Shown: positions 5,101 through 64,000 of the stretch, in pieces
Position numbering within the stretch: the first letter of the stretch is position 1
Layout: each line of letters starts with the position of its first letter
DNA from: Tubiluchus corallicola
Taxonomy: Eukaryota; Priapulida; Priapulimorpha; Priapulimorphida; Tubiluchidae
Assembly: GCA_030141605.1 (NCBI GenBank)
Contig: JAQGDQ010000085.1
Location: 558,001 to 622,000 of the forward strand
Length of the DNA: 64,000 nt
Direction: 5' to 3'
Made by a program: the position numbers and the translations under genes
Notes under the pieces: model-generated
What the model saw: the letters and a program-made list of their open reading frames with translations, nothing else
Database searches by the model: none
Told to the model about the DNA's origin: nothing

Positions 5101-8100
5101 GGCATTTTGAATGTTTTAAACGTAAAATAAATTTTGTTGGCAAATTAATTTCAACCAACACTTTTTTTATCGAATAATGATACTATTGCAAAGTAAAAAT
5201 ATTTCGACATTTCGATTTTTTGAATATTATAAACTAAAAATATTTCATTCATTTTTGTGAAGTGCAAGATAGTGAGAAGTGTTGTATGTGTAGTGACTTG
5301 AGTTAAATACTAAGAAACGTATTAGCGAATTTGTTTGGCGTTTTGAATGTAATACAGACTTGCGGTTATAGATGCTCAGAGCTGTATTTTCATTTAATGG
5401 TTAGCGAAGCCCGAGTTTGTGGCTGAGTTCCAAAGCGAGATTACATCCAAGGTTAGGGACCCGCAAGCATGTATGTAATTTGGGAACTAAATACCATGTT
5501 GGCTATGTTTAGCCCCACGTTGCATGCGAGTGTGCACAGAGTTCAGTACTGGCTGGCCTCATTTCCGTTGCATAGAAGCCACGTTGCTTCTGTCTACAGA
5601 ATGTCGTAAGCTTTGTTATTACCAGTCGCTCGTCTGATCAATAAACTTGTGATAAGGAAGTAATAAGAGGGTAGGATAAAGCCAGTTAATTGCGTGTGCC
5701 GAATGCTGACTGACGATTATTAAAGCCATGTTGGTACAAATACCTCACATTGCTAGAGGGCAATTGAAATGCCAAAAAATATAAAAAGGTGTCTTTATGT
5801 GGGATATTTGTTCCAACTGATGTTTTTTCGCACTATTAAGAATTTGTAAACTCTCATATGTCCTAAAGTTGTAATACTTTCAAATTGTAAAGCTGTTTTT
5901 AAATATTCCAGTTAGTATTTTTTTACTTTTCGTGTGCAAAATTGTGAATTCATAGGATGGGGTTTACACGCTGTACAATGTGTACAAAACAACTGTACGT
6001 GTAACTAGACTTAGTAGACTAATAAGATCATTGAGTTGTTTCGCCTGTCAAAATCTCCCCAAATGTGATATGCCAGTATACAGTATGTCCAAATTTGCCT
6101 GGTTGGTCAATCTCGAGTTTACCAGCGTTGCAAGTAAATATAAATACATTTGCTCGGCGACATGAATTTAGTGACTGTGTCTCGGACATCACATCCTTTC
6201 TTCAAATTTTGAATATGACAAATTTCTAGTCCTAGTTTGCGTCACCATCATATGACCCGAGAGTCCTGTAAGCGTTATGCGCATTTCCTCTTTCCGTATC
6301 CCGTTAAAGTGTGTGTAATTTTGAGATGTCTCCTTCCGCTGAGACAAGACGTAAGGCCAAGTACAGTTTATGCCTGATTTGTACTGGGTTTTGCCAGGTA
6401 GCCCTAATAGGCCTATGTTGCCATGTTTTTGTTATATGTTGTGGGTATAGCGTTCTTTATGTGCTAGCGTCTGTTTGTATGACCGTGTACAATTGTGAGA
6501 GTGAAAGTTGTAACCGAATTTTAATACCGCCATGAGCGTACGGTGCACCCTGCCTAATGTCAGTAATAAATTACTGTGACGCTTTCGAAAGAATGGTTCA
6601 CTGTCCATGAACCGACCTCGTTCAAAGCTTGACCTCAATGACCTGTCTTTCTGTGAAGAAAATCTTTCGCTGTCATTGCTTAGCCTTTTGAGTACCGTGT
6701 CATTATTGTACTTCTAGTGTGATCTGAGTTTTTTGGTCTTTGACTAAAGAATGTTCAAACAAAATTTGCAAGTTACAATTTAAACTGATAATTAACTCGT
6801 ACTATCGAAATATTCACGAGCAACAATTTCCGGTTGCATCGGTAACCTTGGCTTGTACAATAAACGAATGGTTTTCATTACGTCTCTCTTAACGGTGAAA
6901 TTTGATTTATTCAAAGTTATATGCTTATGTAGCCTTGTTAATTACAAGTTCAGTGTTGTTTAGTAAACAAATTGTAAATTATGAATAGCAGAGTCAAGCT
7001 CAAGTGTTAATAATATGCGCAGTTTAAGTGCAAACTATTAAATAATTACACACAATCCCATCACACGAATCATTTTGACTATACAGTCATGTACCGAGGG
7101 TTTCTAAGAGGTATTCAGTACAAAAACTGAAAAATAGCAGAAAAACTAGTGTATATATGCATATTTGGTTAGGGGTCTATTAAAAGTTTAAAACTGCTGT
7201 AGATTTGTCACTGTGAAGTGAGGAACCTCATTTTGACGAAATAGATATTAAAGAACCGGGATATCAGTGCTATTTTAATGTTTATCTGTAGAAATTTTAC
7301 TGTAAATTGAATTATTCTTCGAATAAACCATTAAACATACGTTTCAAACATGGGTGGTATGTTGTTAAAATAGTGAAAAAGTGCTCAGTTTTTTAATCAT
7401 TTTGAGTAAATTGCATGTGTGCTATGTAATTCTTAAATTCATGTTTTATGTGCATTCTTGCTGTACTACATGGCAACTCATATAAAGTGTGTAATATTAT
7501 TTGCAAATTCCTTGTATATTTATTGTATTTGGCTTCATGGGATATCCTGTGGTTTCAATCAGATAGGTATCTTAAAATTAGTCCCTCATTTGCTTGAGAA
7601 TTAACGAAATCCAGATGCTGTGATCGTTTGTCTGCGGTCTCTTACTGGTTCTAAAATGTTAATGCGTATCTGAGGAAGTTTTTCACGTAGCTAAGTTGGC
7701 AAACCCCATTATCATGAGGCAAGGGGAATGATTAATTTGGCTTCTTAAGCGCTGTTTGTTCTACTAGTACTTACTTGGCCCGCAGCCAAATTTACCAGTA
7801 TATCATAAACTTCAGCCGATATGTTTGCTTGATCTAAATGTAGACCCATAGTAAACAGTTGGTATTTACAAGTTTGTATTTGTATTTCGGTATTATGATA
7901 CCCAGGGTCGATTAGTCAGCCACTGAAGTGTTTGGTTGGGTGAACAGTTTGTTTTTGCCTGAATCTGTCAAAACTCGTGTTCAGTAATTTCAACTTTCTC
8001 TGTGCGGCTGCTTCAATTATGCGTTATTAGTCGAAACTGACAGAACAACAGGTTGTTTTGATTAAAAGCACCTGGCTTCAAAGATTTCGATTTTTTTGAG

Positions 8101-43700: not shown

Positions 43701-46700
43701 AGATGGGTTGTGTATAACTGTTAAAATTGTGATGGCACAGTAGTTGCAATTCGTTTGCACAATAGCTGGAAAATGCGGTTTGAAACTTTTACTAAATTTG
43801 AGTGTTAAAATTACATAGGTGACACATTGTCTACACTAACACTGAATTAATGTTAATGTTTTTTCCAGACTTGCCTATGAAAAACCATGAAGTTCATTTA
43901 GAAAATTTGATTGCTGAACTGAGTTTGATAGCTGACATTTGTCACGATCTCACACAGTTTGTGCTGTTACATTTTTTGGAGTGGTATTATGCTTGCATAA
44001 CTTTCTTACTGTATGGAAACGAAAAGGTGTGTAGTTGTTTTAATTCATAACTAGCCAAACCCCACAAAAAGAATTTTGTGCACAAATCAACACAAAACAC
44101 ACACCACACCACTCCACCTCATCACACCACACTGCACCACACCATACCACTCCACCACATCACACCGCACAGCACCACACCATAACACCACACTGCACCA
44201 CACCACCCACACCATACCACTCCACCACACCGCACCACGCCATACCACCTACACACCACACCACCCACACCATACCACTCCACCACATCACACCACACTG
44301 CACCACACCATACCACTGCACCACCCACACACCACACCACCCACACCATAATACTCCACCACATCACACCGCACAGCACCACACCATAACACCACACTGC
44401 ACCACACCATAACACCACACTGCACCACACCACCCACCCACCTACACACCACACCGCACCACACCATACCGCTGCAGCACACCGCACCACCCACACACCA
44501 CACCACACCACCCACACCATACGACTCCACCACATCACACCACACTGCACCACACCATACCACTGCACCGCACCACCCACACACCACAACACACCACCCA
44601 CACCATAATACTCCACCACATCACACCGCACAGCACCACACCATAACACCACACTGCACCACACCACCCACCCACCTACACACCACACCATACCACTCCA
44701 CCACATCACACCCCACCGCACCACAACATACCACTGCAGCACACCGCACGACCCACATACCACACCACACCAACCACGCCATACGACTCCACCACATCAC
44801 ACCACACTGCACCACACCATACCACTGCACCACACCACACCACCCACACACCACACCACCCACACCATAATACTCCACCACATCACACCGCACTGCACCA
44901 CACCATAACACCACACCGCACCACAACACCCACACACACACCACGCCACCCACTCCATACCACACTACCCACACCACACCCCACACACCCTATCACCCCA
45001 CCACACCATCCATTGCACAACACACAAAGCACACCACCACCACACCACATCAAATCCACCACCTCACGTGGTGATCATGATGTTGATGATGATGATGATG
45101 ATGGTGGCAACGGTGACAACACCTATAGCACAAGCACCAACAGCACAGCATTACAACAAAACCATTCCAAACATTTTTCACAAAGTTGAAACTATGTGCT
45201 ATAATATAATAAATAGCAAAGGCCCCGCAAAAGATTTTGCGTATAAATACACGTGTAATCAATAATACGCGAACATCCTACCTAGTCCACATTTATAACA
45301 CAAAGCCCGTAACATCGTGCCTACTGTTTGTTTAACTAACGCAAAGCCTGTAGCTTTTTGCTGAATTAAAGTTATAAGCAGAGTAGAGTACAATGGATGA
45401 CGTCACAACAATGCCTTTGCGTCAGCAGTTTCTTAAGCGAAAATTGTCGAAAATAGAACATCCAATTAACTCGTTGATACTCCTCTCGGTGGACCTGTCC
45501 TAAAATATAACTCACATCATCGTGTAGCCCTGTCCATCCTCTTTGTAAAGAGCTATATATCTCCTTCCGAGAGTCCCACCGGGCGCCGCTAGAACGTTTT
45601 TTCCGCAGGCTGTTTGGTCAAAATTTCGAAAAAATCGCGAGTTGGGTCCGGGAAAACGCCCGTTGCGGGACCCCGTGGCTCTCTCGCAAATTCTAAATAT
45701 GCCTACTACACCCACCGCTGAACGGGCTATCTATCCATACCCAGCACCACCCTCGGCCCGTTCCCGTTCTCTACATCTCAGCCGTATAACTTTTGCAAAA
45801 AACGGCCGAAAAAGGGCCATTTTTGGAGGTTTTTCGCCTCCCCCTCCTCCCGGTGGGCCCGATTCGAAAAATAAACCATCAATGGCACGACACTAGATTG
45901 AGACCTTTCGTTTGATATATAGATCGCCGCAAATGGTGCCCTCGTCCGGGCTGTAGCCTCGAATGTTATATATATATAAATATATATACCAAGAATATTA
46001 ATATAAGAGACTAGCCAAACCCCACAAAAAGAATTTTGTGCACAAATCAACACACAACCCACACCACACCACTCCACCTCATCACACCACACTGCACCAC
46101 ACCATACCACTCCACCTCATCGCACCACACAATACCACCACACTGCACCGCACCACACCATACCACCTACACACCACACCACCCACACCATACCACTCCA
46201 CCACATCACACCACACTGCACCACACCATACCATTGCACCACCCCACACCACCCACCCTCACCATAATACTCCACCACATCACACCGCACAGCACCACAC
46301 CATAACACCACACTGCACCACACCACCCACCCACACCATACCACTCCACCACATCACACCACACTGCACCATACCACTGCAGCACACCGCACCACCCACA
46401 CACCACACCACACCACCCAGACCCTGCGACTCCACTACATCACACCACACTGCACCACACCATACCACTGCACCACACCACACACACCACCCACACACCA
46501 CACCACACCACCCACACCATAATACTCCACCACATCACACCGCACTGCACCACAACACCCACCCACACACCACGCCACCCACTCCATACCACACTACCCA
46601 CACCACACCCCACACACCCTATCACCCCACCACACCATCCATAGCACAACACACAAAGCACACCACCACCACACCACATCAAATCCACCACCTCACGTGG

Positions 46701-49700
46701 TGATCATGATGTTGATGATGATGATGATGGTGGTGGCAATGATGACGACACCTATAGCACAAGCACCAACAGCACAGCATTACAACAAAACCATTCCAAA
46801 CAATTTTCACAAAGTTGAAACTATGTGCTATAATATAATAAATAGCAAAGGCCCCGCAAAAGATTTTGCGTAAAAAACCACGTGTAATCAATAATACGCG
46901 AACATCCTACCTAGTCCTCATTTATAACACAAAGCCCGTAACATCCTGCCTACTGTTTGTCTGTTTATCTAACGCAAAGCAGCTTTTACAGAATTAAAGC
47001 TATAAGATTATAGGCAGAGTACAATGGATGACGTCACAACAATGGCTTTGCGTCAGCAGTTTTCTAAGCGAAAATTGCGAACAATAGAACATCTAATTAA
47101 CTCGTCAATACTCCTCTCGGTGGACCTGTCCTAAAATATAAACTACATCATCGTGTAGCCCCGTTCTTCCTCTTTCTGATGAGCCCCATCACTCCTTCCT
47201 AGAGTCCCACCGGGCGCCGCTAGAACCTTTTTCCCGCAGGCTGTTTGGTCAAAATTTCGAAAAAATCGCGAGTTGGGTCCGGGAAAACGCCCGTTACGGG
47301 ACCCCGTGGCCCTCTCGGGAATTCTAAATATGCCTACTACACCCACCGCTGAACGGGCTATCTATCCATACCCAGCACCCCCCTCGGCCCGTTCCCGTTC
47401 TCTACATCTCAGCCGTATAACTTTTGCAAAAAACGGCCGAAAAATGGCCATTTTTGGAGGTTTTTTCGCCCACCGTTCCTCCCGGTGGGCCCCATTCGAA
47501 AAATAAACCATCAATGGCACGACACTAGATCGAGACCTTTCGTTTGATGTATAGATCGCCGCAAATGGTGCCCTCGTCCGGGCTGTAATCTCGAATCTTA
47601 TATATATATAAATAAATAAATATATATACCAAGAATATTAATATAAGAGTATAATTAAAGAACACATAGTGTCATAGTACACAACTAAGGGTGAGTAATA
47701 GCTGAGTGGTCACGGTGTGTAGTTGTGAACTAAGTTATGCAATGCTAGCTAGGCCTGTAATGATACATTGATGTAGCAATGCATTGTGATATCTTTTATT
47801 ACGATATGTATATTGCCATTGTGCACCCATATTGTGATAATCTGAGTCAGTGATATAATTTAACAAATAGCATGTGCTTGACTGCATGCTGATAAAAACA
47901 TGCTTGACTGCATGCTGTGAAGTAATTCAAGCTGCAGCTGCAGGGTGCCCAACAGGGTGCAGTCAGCAGTAATTGCCAACAGCCAAAGTAATTGAAAACT
48001 CAAGGTGTTAAATTCATAGTAAGCTAATTATGTCGTTTACATATAAACCTACCTGTGACGTGGCAAAAGTGAATCGGAAACATGGGAACTTTTATACCTA
48101 AAGCATTGATATGTTTGTTTTTCTGGTTGCCTACACATTATGCACGTAATAAATAAAATCAAACAGCTAATGGAGTTGTTTTAGTCTTTAGCAATCGTAA
48201 TACTGTTAATGGATGAAATGTGTTTACTATTTATTATAAACGGCTTCATCTAGATTTTTTTATAAAACCTGCAAATGTAAATCGTGTGTATCATATTTTG
48301 AGGTTAGTAATGTGATATGTATTGTATTGTGACCTAGGTGTATCGTTACTGCACTAATGCTAGTATAGTAGTAAGGCTTTGGTAGTATATATGGATGTGT
48401 GGCTATTGAGAAAACATTTTGTGCAGTTTAGTCTTGCCTTGTCTGATCTTTTAGAGGGATGGTGAATATTAAATGATAACAAGGCTGTGGTGCCTCCGTT
48501 TATTCAGCATCTTATACCAAACAATTATCCTTGATAATTAACCGAGTTCTAGTCCTGTAACGCCATTAGTAGGCACTGTATATCGAGGTGCATTGTGCCA
48601 AACTGTTAAAAATACTGTATTTAATGGACAGTATTGGTTGAGACGAGTAAATTTTAGTTTAAATTAAATTATTTTGTTTGTTTCTGTATCTGTTTAGTTA
48701 TTAAATAAATTATCATTTATTAAGCAGGGTAAATCAGAAATTTAACAATAACACATTCTATTCCAGAAGGTACGAGTTGCGTTAAATTTCGGTTGCAAGT
48801 ACCACACCACTTCATTCACAGAAGGACAAATGGTAAGGCCAAAAATAAAAATACTTCTGTTTTCATCTAATCGCCTGGGTAATATTTTTTCGCACACCCA
48901 ATCAGGAATATTATAATTTTTTTGTGTATTCATATACTTATCTGATGCAGTCATATAAAAGCGTATTTTTTCAAATTAAGAGGTAAAACACAATAATTAT
49001 AACATTGTTTTGGCGAGGATGCGACCGTGTTTTTCTATGGCTAGCTCTCGACCTGGGTTGCCGTTTCGTTGTGTTTTCCGGAATTGGCGGGTATTAATGG
49101 CCAAGTAGTATTGTCGCCCACACCGTAATTATCAGAACGTTCATACAGTATAAAAAACAGACTACAAGATAATCGATAATTATACAATAATCTAGTAATG
49201 CGGAACAACAAACTAGAAAATGAAGCATGAAAAATGTGCATTAAAAAAATTCAAATGTTACTGCTAACCAGTGAGAAATGAGCTTTGATTTCAACTGATT
49301 TTAAATATTCCACAATTCTGCTTTAAACATTCACAAATGTTTTGAAAAATAAAATTCTTCTCCTCCCTACTGACATCTTCTGAAATCGTGAGGTAAGACA
49401 AAAACAGTTTTTGTGGCCGGCCTAAGTACATTTTACTATTCAGGTGTTGATATTGCTGAGCATACATTTTGCATTAACATAGCCTCAATATTTATGTTTA
49501 AGTGATGGAGGAACCTGCATGCTTGCAATTTAAAAATTTATTATCCAGTTGTATTGCTTTTTACGTTATTTAAAACATTGCTGATTATTGATGGTAGATT
49601 CTTGGTATCAAAAATTTTCAGTCATATTTTCAGAAAGAGGAATAATTAGGAACGGCAATTATGATTTTCTACAATACTCGAATGAGTTTTAAGTAAGAAT

Positions 49701-59866: not shown

Positions 59867-61550
59867 CTATTTCATTTTACTCCACTTGGAACGTGCCTGA
59901 AGTAAAGGAAGATATTCCTTAAGCCATCTTCTCCAGAATACGTCAGCCATATGTTGAATCTGTCGCCAACGTTTTTTCTAGATGTCAACTGTGCTAAATT
60001 GCCCGGGAGCGTAAACTGGGTTCTTATGTAATAGCAGTAGGTGATTAGGCATCAGTGCTTCACAGTCTTTTATGTCATCAGAAACACTCGTGATCGGCCT
60101 GTTATTTAGAATGCTTTCTACGATACAAAAGTAAGTTTGCAAACCTTCATCATCTAATGTTTGCTTGGTCATAACGAAGCTTAAAACTCGCTTAACGCTC
60201 TTGATGGTGTTCCCAAACTCCAGCTGTGTGATGAGCAGCAGGAGGGTGGAATTTCCATTCTATATTCTGCTTCAGCATCGCATCAGAAGCCTTTGTTTGC
60301 TCCAGCTGTTTGATTGACTGCCTGAGTTCACGCTCTGCTCCAACCATGTTCGTACCGCAATCAGATCTGATGATTTTTGGTTCTCCTCGTCGGCAAGAGA
60401 ATCGTTGAATTGCATTAATCAATGAACTGCTGTCCATAGTGTGCAATACGTCCAAACGAATTGCTCGGGTTGCTATGCATGTAAATATTAGCCCATAGCG
60501 CTTCGTGCTCTTTTAACTAAGTATGGCCCAAAACAGTCTAGGCCTACATTTTCGAAGCATCTGGAAACTTCAACTCTTTCAGGTGGCAGATCGCTCATTT
60601 TTTGCTCCATGGGTGATTCTAACTTTAACCTGCACAATCTGCACTCTCGAGTTACCTTGTTTGTCATTACACGAAGTCCTATAATCCAGTACTTGGATCT
60701 CATGAGAGACATGGTGTGTTCTTTGCCAATATGGCCATAGTTGTCATGGTAGTGCCTAATGACCAGCTTAGAAAATGGGTGTTTCGAAGGTAACAACACC
60801 GGATGTTTTGCTAAGTCAGCAAGGTCAGCATGGCGTAAGCGACCTCCTATAGTCAGTACACCCCCAGAAGACATGACTGGATCAAGCTTGTAGAGATCAC
60901 TTGGTTTTGGAACCAATTGTCCTACGTCCTTTGACAACATCTGGTATTCTCTATTGAAATGCATCTGCTGAATGTGTTTCACTATTTCGTTTTCAGCTTC
61001 ACTAATGTCCGACAAGGTTAGTTTCATTGATGAATTTTCATTATATCTTCTAATTCGGCCGTATAGATTTCTTTTGACCTTTATCAGCCAAGCAACAACT
61101 CGTTTCAGTCTGTAAAAGGAAGAATAATGTTCACATAGCTTATCTATAACACTCTTCATAATGTTCACTCACTACTTCTATTGCACCAGCTGCAACTTTT
61201 CTCTTTACCTCTTTGTCATCTAGCAGGTAGTTCTTTCCTGATAAGAAGTCGAAGTTTGGCCAATTTTCCTTTGATTGTTTCAGAAAAGCTAGTCCATGTT
61301 TCCATCTGGTTGAGAATAAAAGTGCATTTGCATCTAGGCCGCGAGTAACATCATCAGCCAGATTTTCTTCTGATGGGACATGACGCCATTGTTTTGCAGA
61401 AGTTTGCTGCAGAATTGAAGACACCCCATTGTTGACAAATGTGTGGAATCGTTTTGTGTCATTGTGTATGTACTGTAAAATGAGCACACTATCCGACCAG
61501 AAGAAAACATCATCAATCTTCAAGTCTAATTCGTCTCAGCAGGCGAAGAT
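59867..61550 (-). pseudogene. BEL/Pao retrotransposon pol remnant (RNase H end and integrase)
   Basis: Minus-strand order: end of RNase H (FFWSDSVLILQYI, QWRHVPSEENLADDVTRG), linker (HYSSFYRLKRVVAWLIK), integrase zinc finger (HYHDNYGHIGKEHT ... CRLCRLK), core (NVGLDCFGPYLVK; RSDCGTNMVGAERELR; HHTAGVWE), and the C-terminal end ([35 protein letters not shown]). Breaks: frameshifts near 61140, near 60510 and near 60195, and an in-frame TAG near 59975. gag, protease and reverse transcriptase are missing, so the copy is 5'-truncated and dead. Confidence 0.85.
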
Positions 61551-62496: not shown

Positions 62497-62712
62497 TCCA
62501 CAACCTCACGTACGGCATTCGTGCTGTAAATTCCAAACGGTACGGGTTTTGACACCTAAACGATTAGTTCTCTCTCCAGTGGAGACACACACAAAAAATA
62601 CACAACGTGTGTCCCAGCAACCTCAAACGTGCGGCCTTCGTACATTTAATTCCATACGGTACGGGTTTTTACACCAAAACGATTAGTTCTTTCATCAGCT
62701 GGGACACACACG
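62497..62712. repeat. Two-copy direct repeat of about 95 bp
   Basis: CAACCTCA...CGGTACGGGTTTT...ACGATTAGTTCT...GACACACAC at 62497-62594 is repeated with roughly 80% identity at 62616-62712. It lies just downstream (minus strand) of the family pseudogene and could be part of its 3' region or of the element carrying it. Confidence 0.7.
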
Positions 62713-62762
62713 AAACACATGTAGCCAACAGTTGGCTATAGAGGCAAGCTCTAAAGTGCAGG

Positions 62763-64000
62763 TCATTCTCCTTCGTCCTTGTCTTTCTGCTTCTCCTCCT
62801 CTTTTGCTTTCTTCTTTGCAGATATTCGGACAAGGACGCCTTCCAACCATTGCTCGTATGGGATACCTTCATTTGGGCAAAAAAGGTATCCACGCTGACA
62901 CCGATGGTCTGTTGTTAGCAGTCTGTTCCAAGCCACATTTCTTGCAACTGTTGAAACACTTCAGGCGCTTGTACTTCGGAGCTTGCCCTTCTTATAGCAT
63001 GCGACGATGGCGGTACGCTGTTGAGCGAGACACACTTGGTGGTTTGTCACCATCATCAGGACCATCATCAGGCAACTTCCGCTTTCTTACAGATGCCTCA
63101 CCAGCTGTATTCGGAGGTAGAACGTAGGTGTACCTTTCCCGGTATTCTACAACTGGAGGTGCATCGGGAAGCTGATGTGCCGGTGGAAGTGGATGCGGTG
63201 ATGTTAATGGCTGTGATGGCAGGTCCATACCCTGTACAAGTGTGTCCTGCTCTTTCGCTCTCATTTTCTTGCTGAACCTGCAAGGACAATATACAGTGTT
63301 ACAATAATATAGTGTATACAAATGCAGTGTAAGTCACAGTTTTTAAACAGTGAAATTGTCAATAATAAAAATGCACTGTAAACTTACCAGTCGATCAGCG
63401 TTTTCTGATTGATGTAAAACAGCTGCAGCGTGGTGTGGGCTTGCACCTTTGGATTCGACGACAGCAGTTCCTGGATTTGGCCTTAATCCTCTAGAATGAG
63501 CCTCCATCTGGTAATCATCTTATGTGGACTGGACGACTTCAGTGGGCATGGATGGATAACGCACAGCTTCAGGCAGATGGCTTCAATTAGCCTGCTTGCA
63601 CTTGGCCACTGAGCTGGCCCCACATTGCCTCCAACAAAGCACCTAGAGAATAAAAAACAAATATTCAATCACATGAAATAATTGACTCAAAAATACAAGA
63701 GAAAAAACACGAGAAATAAAAATAAAATAAAATAAAATGAAAAAAATATACCTTTTAACACTCTCCTGTCCAGGTGCAACTTGAGACTTGGATGGCGCGG
63801 CCCTTCGTCAGCTGGGGCTTATGCCGTGGTGGATAATCGATCCGCCTCTTGCCCACATCATGGAGGTCGTTCCACAGTGTAATAATGGTTGTCACCTGGG
63901 AGTTTGAGAGTGCAGCTGAACCTTTTATCGCAACAAGGTAGTTTGCAAGGTTTTGAACCCTTCCATTCCTGATGGTCCCATGAAAACTTCTGGTTGTTGA
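62763..64000 (-). pseudogene. Decayed copy of an uncharacterised multi-exon protein family (partial, runs off window)
   Basis: Minus-strand exons: 64000-63752, 63642-63388 and 63277-62763, with canonical donors and acceptors and matching phases (AAAAG|GTATAT; TCTCTAG|G; CTG|GTAAGT; TTGCAG|G). The order of conserved patches is GTIRNGRVQNLANYL, KGSAALSNSQVTTIITLWNDL, RCFVGGNVGPAQWPSASRLIEAI, RWRLILED, TLQLFYINQKTLIDWFSKK, YVLPPNTAGEA..RKRK, SRSTAYRHR, CKKCG, and CQRGYLFCPNEGIPYEQWLEG. The last two patches suggest a CxxC...C zinc-binding end, followed by a Lys/Glu tail. I recall similar unnamed proteins, often multi-copy, from marine-invertebrate and fish genomes; their function is unknown to me. 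Breaks: a frameshift near 63775, a stop where DYG would be expected in exon 2, a stop after HRRML and a frameshift within the zinc motif. Confidence 0.6.

Follow-up and report, generated by a model that had tools for sequence, protein, structure and literature searches.

The closest described relatives of the feature analysed here are the Dada DNA transposons (Kojima & Jurka 2013), described in PMC3706591 and PMC8869645. The zebrafish transposase Dada-U6_DR carries a zinc module of four cysteines (C389, C394, C429, C432), the catalytic residues D567, D635 and E811, a DxxH motif and a terminal finger, C1359/C1362/H1372/C1381 (PMC3706591). Introns occur in nearly all of the Dada transposases described there, and the target site duplications are 6–7 bp. 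Where do these elements insert? The 2013 paper places all Dada elements with clearly definable termini in small RNA genes, and it also lists families without an identified target (PMC3706591). The later source treats insertion into small RNA genes as a habit of many Dada elements, not as their definition, and reports off-target copies, one of them within a hAT element (PMC8869645). In Dada-tA, TTGCGC is substituted for the native hexamer at the insertion site, in some cases on a single side (PMC3706591, PMC8869645).

How does the present locus compare? We analysed 64,000 nucleotides of the genome of Tubiluchus corallicola, referred to here as the window, and at its right end found what is very probably a decayed Dada transposon with Dada-U6-like ends, represented there by its 3' (C-terminal) half. 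Membership was judged from published features and spacings rather than from direct alignment to Dada proteins, and we hold back a little confidence because the superfamily's usual target, looked for at these ends, was not found. The preliminary description had spoken of an unnamed, uncharacterised family; the family has a name, for its protein is the Dada transposase of Kojima & Jurka (2013). That description would have given up its reading if homologues proved confined to one known transposon type, which for the copies seen here is in effect the case, and the recombinase that it proposed to seek beside intact copies is the gene itself.

All of the conserved patches named in the preliminary description are present, on the minus strand, between positions 62763 and 64000. 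Exon A (63752–64000; located by tblastn with sister-copy peptides, genome matches and its donor site) is partial, running beyond the end of the window, and encodes the C-terminal region of the transposase from RVQNLANYLVAIKGSAALSNSQVTTIITLWNDLHDV to YPPRHKP. It is followed on the same strand by intron 1 (63643–63751, GT–AG, by sequence script), by exon B (63388–63642, RCFVGGNVGPAQWPSASRLIEAI..NQKTLIDW, by splice sites and tblastn) and by intron 2 (63278–63387, GTAAGT–AG, by sequence script). Exon C (62763–63277, minus strand) is the last and encodes LVQGMDLP..YVLPPNTAG..SRSTAYRHR followed by a zinc finger. The three spliceable exons were thus correctly described, and the two GT–AG introns, as membership in Dada leads one to expect, bear out the earlier argument against a retrocopy. 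The two stops also stand, at 63483–63485 in exon B and at 62992–62994 in exon C. Instead of two frameshifts, comparison with sister-copy peptides gives three, near 63960 and 63805 in exon A and near 62925 in exon C. Because of the first of these, the patch read as RNGRVQNL begins out of frame, in its 'RNG'; the sister copies have MEGY–RVQNL at this place. Similarly, the C-x2-C of the supposed terminal CxxC motif is real; it belongs to a C-terminal CCHC finger (62877–62946, minus strand, from sister-copy comparison and the spacing published in PMC3706591), which in the window copy a frameshift splits after the second C, ahead of the H.

The element does not end with its coding sequence. Its non-coding 3' part extends on the minus strand from 62762 to 61532 (blastn against sister copies and 3'-end alignment) and includes, at 62508–62715, two direct repeats of 89 nt lying 119 nt apart, of which the copy on C1384 has more units. 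Homology to four other loci (L004, L005, L006, L007) and to two units in L012 stops at 61532 by both blastn and alignment, and measured against the copy on C562 some 226 bp, including the 3' terminus, are absent beyond that point. The truncated end adjoins a retrotransposon pol remnant lying outside the Dada element (60192–61535, minus strand; domain search, blastn and alignment), in which Integrase_H2C2 scored above the cut-off and rve weakly, below it. We take this remnant to be BEL/Pao.

In the other direction the gene crosses the right-hand boundary of the window and continues, on the same strand, with further exons in the adjoining locus L003. The whole copy, on the minus strand, spans from window position 61532 to about 6.5 kb past the right edge, with its 5' end near 628.53 kb of the contig (G000:C719). 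Part of the DUF6729 domain (PF20499, E 1.7e-40) lies upstream in this same copy, together with the first two catalytic aspartates, and the DxxH region is occupied by a 2.25-kb hAT-like transposon with a BED finger (L003:2750–5003), which has CAGTG ends and an 8-bp duplication, ATCTAGAC. With two stops, three frameshifts, the hAT-like insertion at DxxH and the loss of its 3' terminus, the window copy is dead. As a separate observation, a piece of an endogenous mononegavirus L polymerase (PF00946, PF14318) lies at L003:7983–9425, minus strand (G000:C719, approximately 628483–629925); the 5' end of the Dada copy is at its edge, at a TTGCAC site, as if inserted there.

Do the protein motifs bear out the assignment? 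Like Dada-U6 of zebrafish, the family here combines a putative DDE core and DxxH with an N-terminal CCCC module, a C-terminal C-x2-C-x9-H-x8-C finger and introns (PMC3706591). The D1–D2 spacing is 68 (L003:4947–5753), equal to that between D567 and D635. The CCCC spacings, read in C1616 with one stop within, are 5, 32 and 3, with 134 to D1, against a published 5, 35, 3 and 135. DxxH occurs as DIFH or DIYH, the DIFH of C1801 following D2 by 28 residues. The terminal finger of C1801 and C562 is identical to the published spacing of 3, 10 and 9; C1384 lacks part of it, and in C1525 one neighbouring residue is changed. For the catalytic E there are two candidates, SLESFH at 190 residues after D2 and another at 214–216, compared with a published 176, these distances being measured on exons pieced together from two copies. 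From its cysteine spacing, DUF6729 would correspond to the Dada CCCC zinc domain. A once unnamed family is in this way given a name, and DUF6729, with the LPPNTAG and C-terminal CCHC signature, is linked to the Dada transposase; a literature search on DUF6729 found no paper. A sequence search of the PDB with one piece (L003:4947–5753) gave no match at E <= 10, and among viral contigs five pattern matches for relatives yielded none that was confirmed. KDZ/Zisupton, our first guess, was rejected, the DDE spacing and the zinc modules fitting Dada and the scanned pieces giving no Pfam KDZ match.

Might the gene instead come from some other DDE superfamily in which C/DxxH occurs, such as hAT, MuDR, P or Kolobok? 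DxxH or CxxH is common to these four (PMC3706591), and a second element family in this genome, with the different end CAGTGGCGTCGTGC.., has 72 bp in common with the 5' interior of the Dada element. No Pfam hAT, MULE or P domain was found in the core pieces, however (E up to 1 or 10, most weak matches having been dropped), and both the pair of zinc modules, whose spacing matches, and the U6-type sub-terminal repeat described below are features of Dada. We regard such an affiliation as extremely unlikely.

The Dada gene is not alone in its genome. In the 343.5 Mb assembly searched, where all copy counts are lower bounds, the exon A peptide matched at least five further places (best E 1.2e-30), the LPPNTAG exon peptide at least nine further contigs (best E 3.3e-68) and the zinc-finger exon peptide at least nine (best E 2.9e-27), all of this well beyond what chance would give; a profile search for DUF6729 found at least 16 pieces. 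No DUF6729 was found in 14 control genomes, but neither was U6, so that this control is only weakly informative. Copies at unrelated places have sharp common termini and unrelated flanks, the 5' terminus reading hexamer|CTCCCGGACACCAA.. and the 3' terminus ..CAGAGAAGATTGGGCGGGTGCCT|hexamer. Two elements measured from end to end are 4119 bp (C562) and 5624 bp (C1801) long and are without internal stretches that the window copy contains; internally deleted derivatives are also published for Dada-U6 (PMC3706591). With C562 the window copy shares 93.4% identity over 2196 bp and with C1801 94.6% over 2680 bp, so that the family is not very old. On C1958 the units stand head to tail, with 6–7 nt between ends at the two joints read, in the manner of the Dada-U1 tandems that have a hexamer between units (PMC3706591). 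A palindromic derivative on C2272 (L048, 32600–34050) is bounded on either side by a 3' terminus, and both termini face outward, onto TTGCGCA.

These observations bear on a further alternative, a host gene family that is uncharacterised and does not move, or a Dada gene that has been domesticated, with one pseudogene in the window. The gene is multi-exon, and a domesticated Dada gene is indeed known in cyprinoid fish (PMC8869645). That gene, dDada, resembles ours in deriving from a Dada-U6 transposase; unlike ours it is transcribed from an orthologous locus, whereas the copies in this genome are numerous, mobile and decayed. All seven loci with listed open frames (L003–L009) are deleted, truncated or interrupted, and a resident gene is hard to reconcile with common sharp termini, unrelated flanks, internal deletions and head-to-tail units. 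The host-gene explanation is largely refuted by the termini, and we consider it highly improbable. Lesions, genome matches and shared termini agree instead with what the preliminary description had proposed, a dead, multi-copy, mobile family beside other transposon remnants. Some of the decay is shared: in C1616 and two units on C1958, one and the same codon between the cysteine pairs is a stop (GY*KTV; Y in the window copy), and the three probably have it from a single source copy that was already broken. Further DUF6729 matches also contain a TAA.

What do the ends of the element reveal? We scored 25, ten 5' and fifteen 3'. The 5' ends were drawn from 25 rows at 22 places, leaving out seven with the CAGTGGCGTCGTGC.. 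terminus (C794, C485, C461, C1491, C1295 and two on C1185), four array repeat units (two each on C1958 and C1317) and the eroded end on C879. Of 17 3' ends found, two internal tandem joints were left out; a diverged 3' end on C1894, with CAGAGAAGATT present and an unrecognisable terminus, was left uncounted. The repeat CAGAGAAGA stands 14 nt from the hexamer, exactly at 12 of the 15 3' ends and with one mismatch at two; for C562 the scored piece stops short of the repeat, which is seen in L004. In Dada-U6, similarly, CAGAGAAGA lies 14 nt from a site GCGCAA/TTGCGC (PMC3706591). The same gap recurs in this genome's own U6: in three genes CAGAGAAGA and 14 nt precede GCGCAA, and in two variant genes one or two letters ahead of GCGCAA are extra or different. 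At the same distance from the 5' hexamer, seven of ten ends have TTTTCAATG, a 6/9 match to TCTTCTCTG, and two have TCTTCACTG (8/9), the window copy matching at 5/9. In contrast to Dada-U6, then, the 5' sub-terminal repeat here is mostly 6/9, the inspected copies are broken, and none of the 25 ends lies in U6.

All fifteen 3' ends have a final T in common. Together with the 6–7 identical bases that flank the element C2104b, whose hexamer is TGTCGC on both sides, this led us to reject a target duplication of 2 or 3 bp. C2104b provides the one clear two-sided 6-nt duplication. At C1143 the hexamers are TTGCGC and TTGCGC with ends 13.4 kb apart, belonging to one element or two, and at C562, C1801 and the C1958 array the two hexamers are unequal. 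TTGCGC is exact at five of the fifteen 3' ends. The remaining ten hexamers match it at a mean of 3.1 of six positions, compared with 1.40 for 200,000 random hexamers, a mean reached by none of 200,000 simulated sets (the background being ten loci, elements included). Among the 5' hexamers TTGCGC is exact in three of ten, and six of ten match at five or more positions. The mean for the 5' hexamers leaves out C2104a, whose flank is common with C1317; the hexamer GTTGCG of C1472 (1/6), possibly shifted by a one-base gap, was kept as scored. The element prefers TTGCGC-like sites.

Does TTGCGC perhaps belong permanently to the ends of the element, instead of being target sequence carried along? Its presence after a third of the 3' ends, and at both outward ends of the palindromic derivative, is what such an arrangement would give. 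The other ten 3' ends have other hexamers, however, and several of these are native to their sites: TGTCGC, by its occurrence on both sides of C2104b; ACTCGC at C1801, found also in the element-free paralogue C1157; and GTTTGC at C1317, with identical letters in two uninterrupted paralogues. We think a fixed TTGCGC unlikely, if worth weighing, and prefer a hexamer acquired from the target. At their 5' sides C562 has TTGCGC and C1801 ATGCGC, with another hexamer at the 3' side, much as in Dada-tA, where the element carries TTGCGC along and puts it in place of the native hexamer, in some cases one-sidedly (PMC3706591, PMC8869645). The 5' flank of C1801 has no match to the paralogue C1157, and a rearrangement is possible there. 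For C2104b, C562 and C1801 a search for uninterrupted empty sites with joined flanks returned one-sided paralogues only (C1157; C2104, C1317).

If the ends are of the Dada-U6 type, do the elements lie in U6 genes? U6 is highly conserved, and at least six matches to it were found in the genome, five above the cut-off and none with an element inside. They come from 48 candidates scored among many in a first look, and stretches close to human DNA may be absent from the searched assembly, so that these counts are lower bounds. A pattern joining element end and U6 matched twice, with three mismatches each, against once in the control. In the 21 larger loci no U6, U1, 5S or tRNA was detected at E <= 0.1, and a dedicated tRNA scan likewise found none; in this respect the family differs from Dada-tA, whose home is the tRNA-Ala genes (PMC3706591, PMC8869645). 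The RNA scan of these loci gave eight matches, two of them histone stem-loops and the other six resembling microRNAs or sRNAs and scoring below their gathering scores. With blastn-short, U6 gave 27 matches of 12–13 nt to loci L003–L055, 26 of them the CAGAGAAGATT stretch. Six ends fall outside the 21 loci (C1958c 3', C2104a 5', both of C2104b, C1143 5' and a C1317 unit), where approximately 60–80 nt of flank was compared with U6 only, and six 3' flanks within the loci (C1846, C1143a, C2085, C1143b, C331, C610) reach only about 80–105 nt outward; about half of the flanks were thus read over 60–105 nt.

Given the statement of the 2013 paper on small RNA genes (PMC3706591), the count of 0/25 speaks against the Dada assignment. 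Because no element lies inside the U6 genes, we file the family not as Dada-U6 but as Dada with Dada-U6-like ends. Tentatively, and at somewhat less than an even chance, a transposon of the Dada-U6 branch may have broken free of U6 as its target, few U6 genes having been found in this genome; it would still prefer TTGCGC-like sites and carry the ancestral U6 hexamer as a one-sided passenger. In the portions of the literature available, no described Dada family was found that has U6-type ends and all its copies outside RNA genes. Since Kojima reports both a passenger TTGCGC and an off-target copy, the hexamer pattern extends published Dada behaviour and is no new phenomenon, and the variation is modest.

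How might the copies have arisen? By analogy with the published superfamily, an intact relative would make the multi-exon DDE transposase, and this enzyme would recognise the 9-nt sub-terminal repeats, which lie 14 nt in from either end, excise the element at its ends and insert it at a TTGCGC-like hexamer. The CCHC finger, one of two zinc modules, is plausibly DNA-binding. Cut-and-paste by the Dada enzyme may have generated the copies; to judge from the tandem arrays of C1317 and C1958, some later copying could have been passive.

The window feature belongs, as a dead copy, to a transposon superfamily already known and is ordinary in kind; its target pattern is moderately interesting. If the off-target insertions hold, the family amounts to a natural experiment in which to see how a site-specific DNA transposon comes to choose a target, retain it or lose it, and it bears on the use of Dada for targeted gene insertion, an idea already published (PMC3706591). 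If the escape from U6 is true, a target-specific DNA transposon would have become a looser inserter, its site recognition relaxed and the core motif kept.

Three minor observations may be added. The Dada copy on C887 (L006:4043–7618) has coding tandem repeats within an open frame, with many 94-bp and several 91-bp units. Locus L014 holds two histone 3' UTR stem-loops (RF00032, above gathering score) at 6624–6670 and 7970–8016, the nearer some 365 bases from the truncated copy on C1432. Within the window itself, a long low-complexity repeat of CACCACA type, open in several frames, occupies positions 44122–46703.
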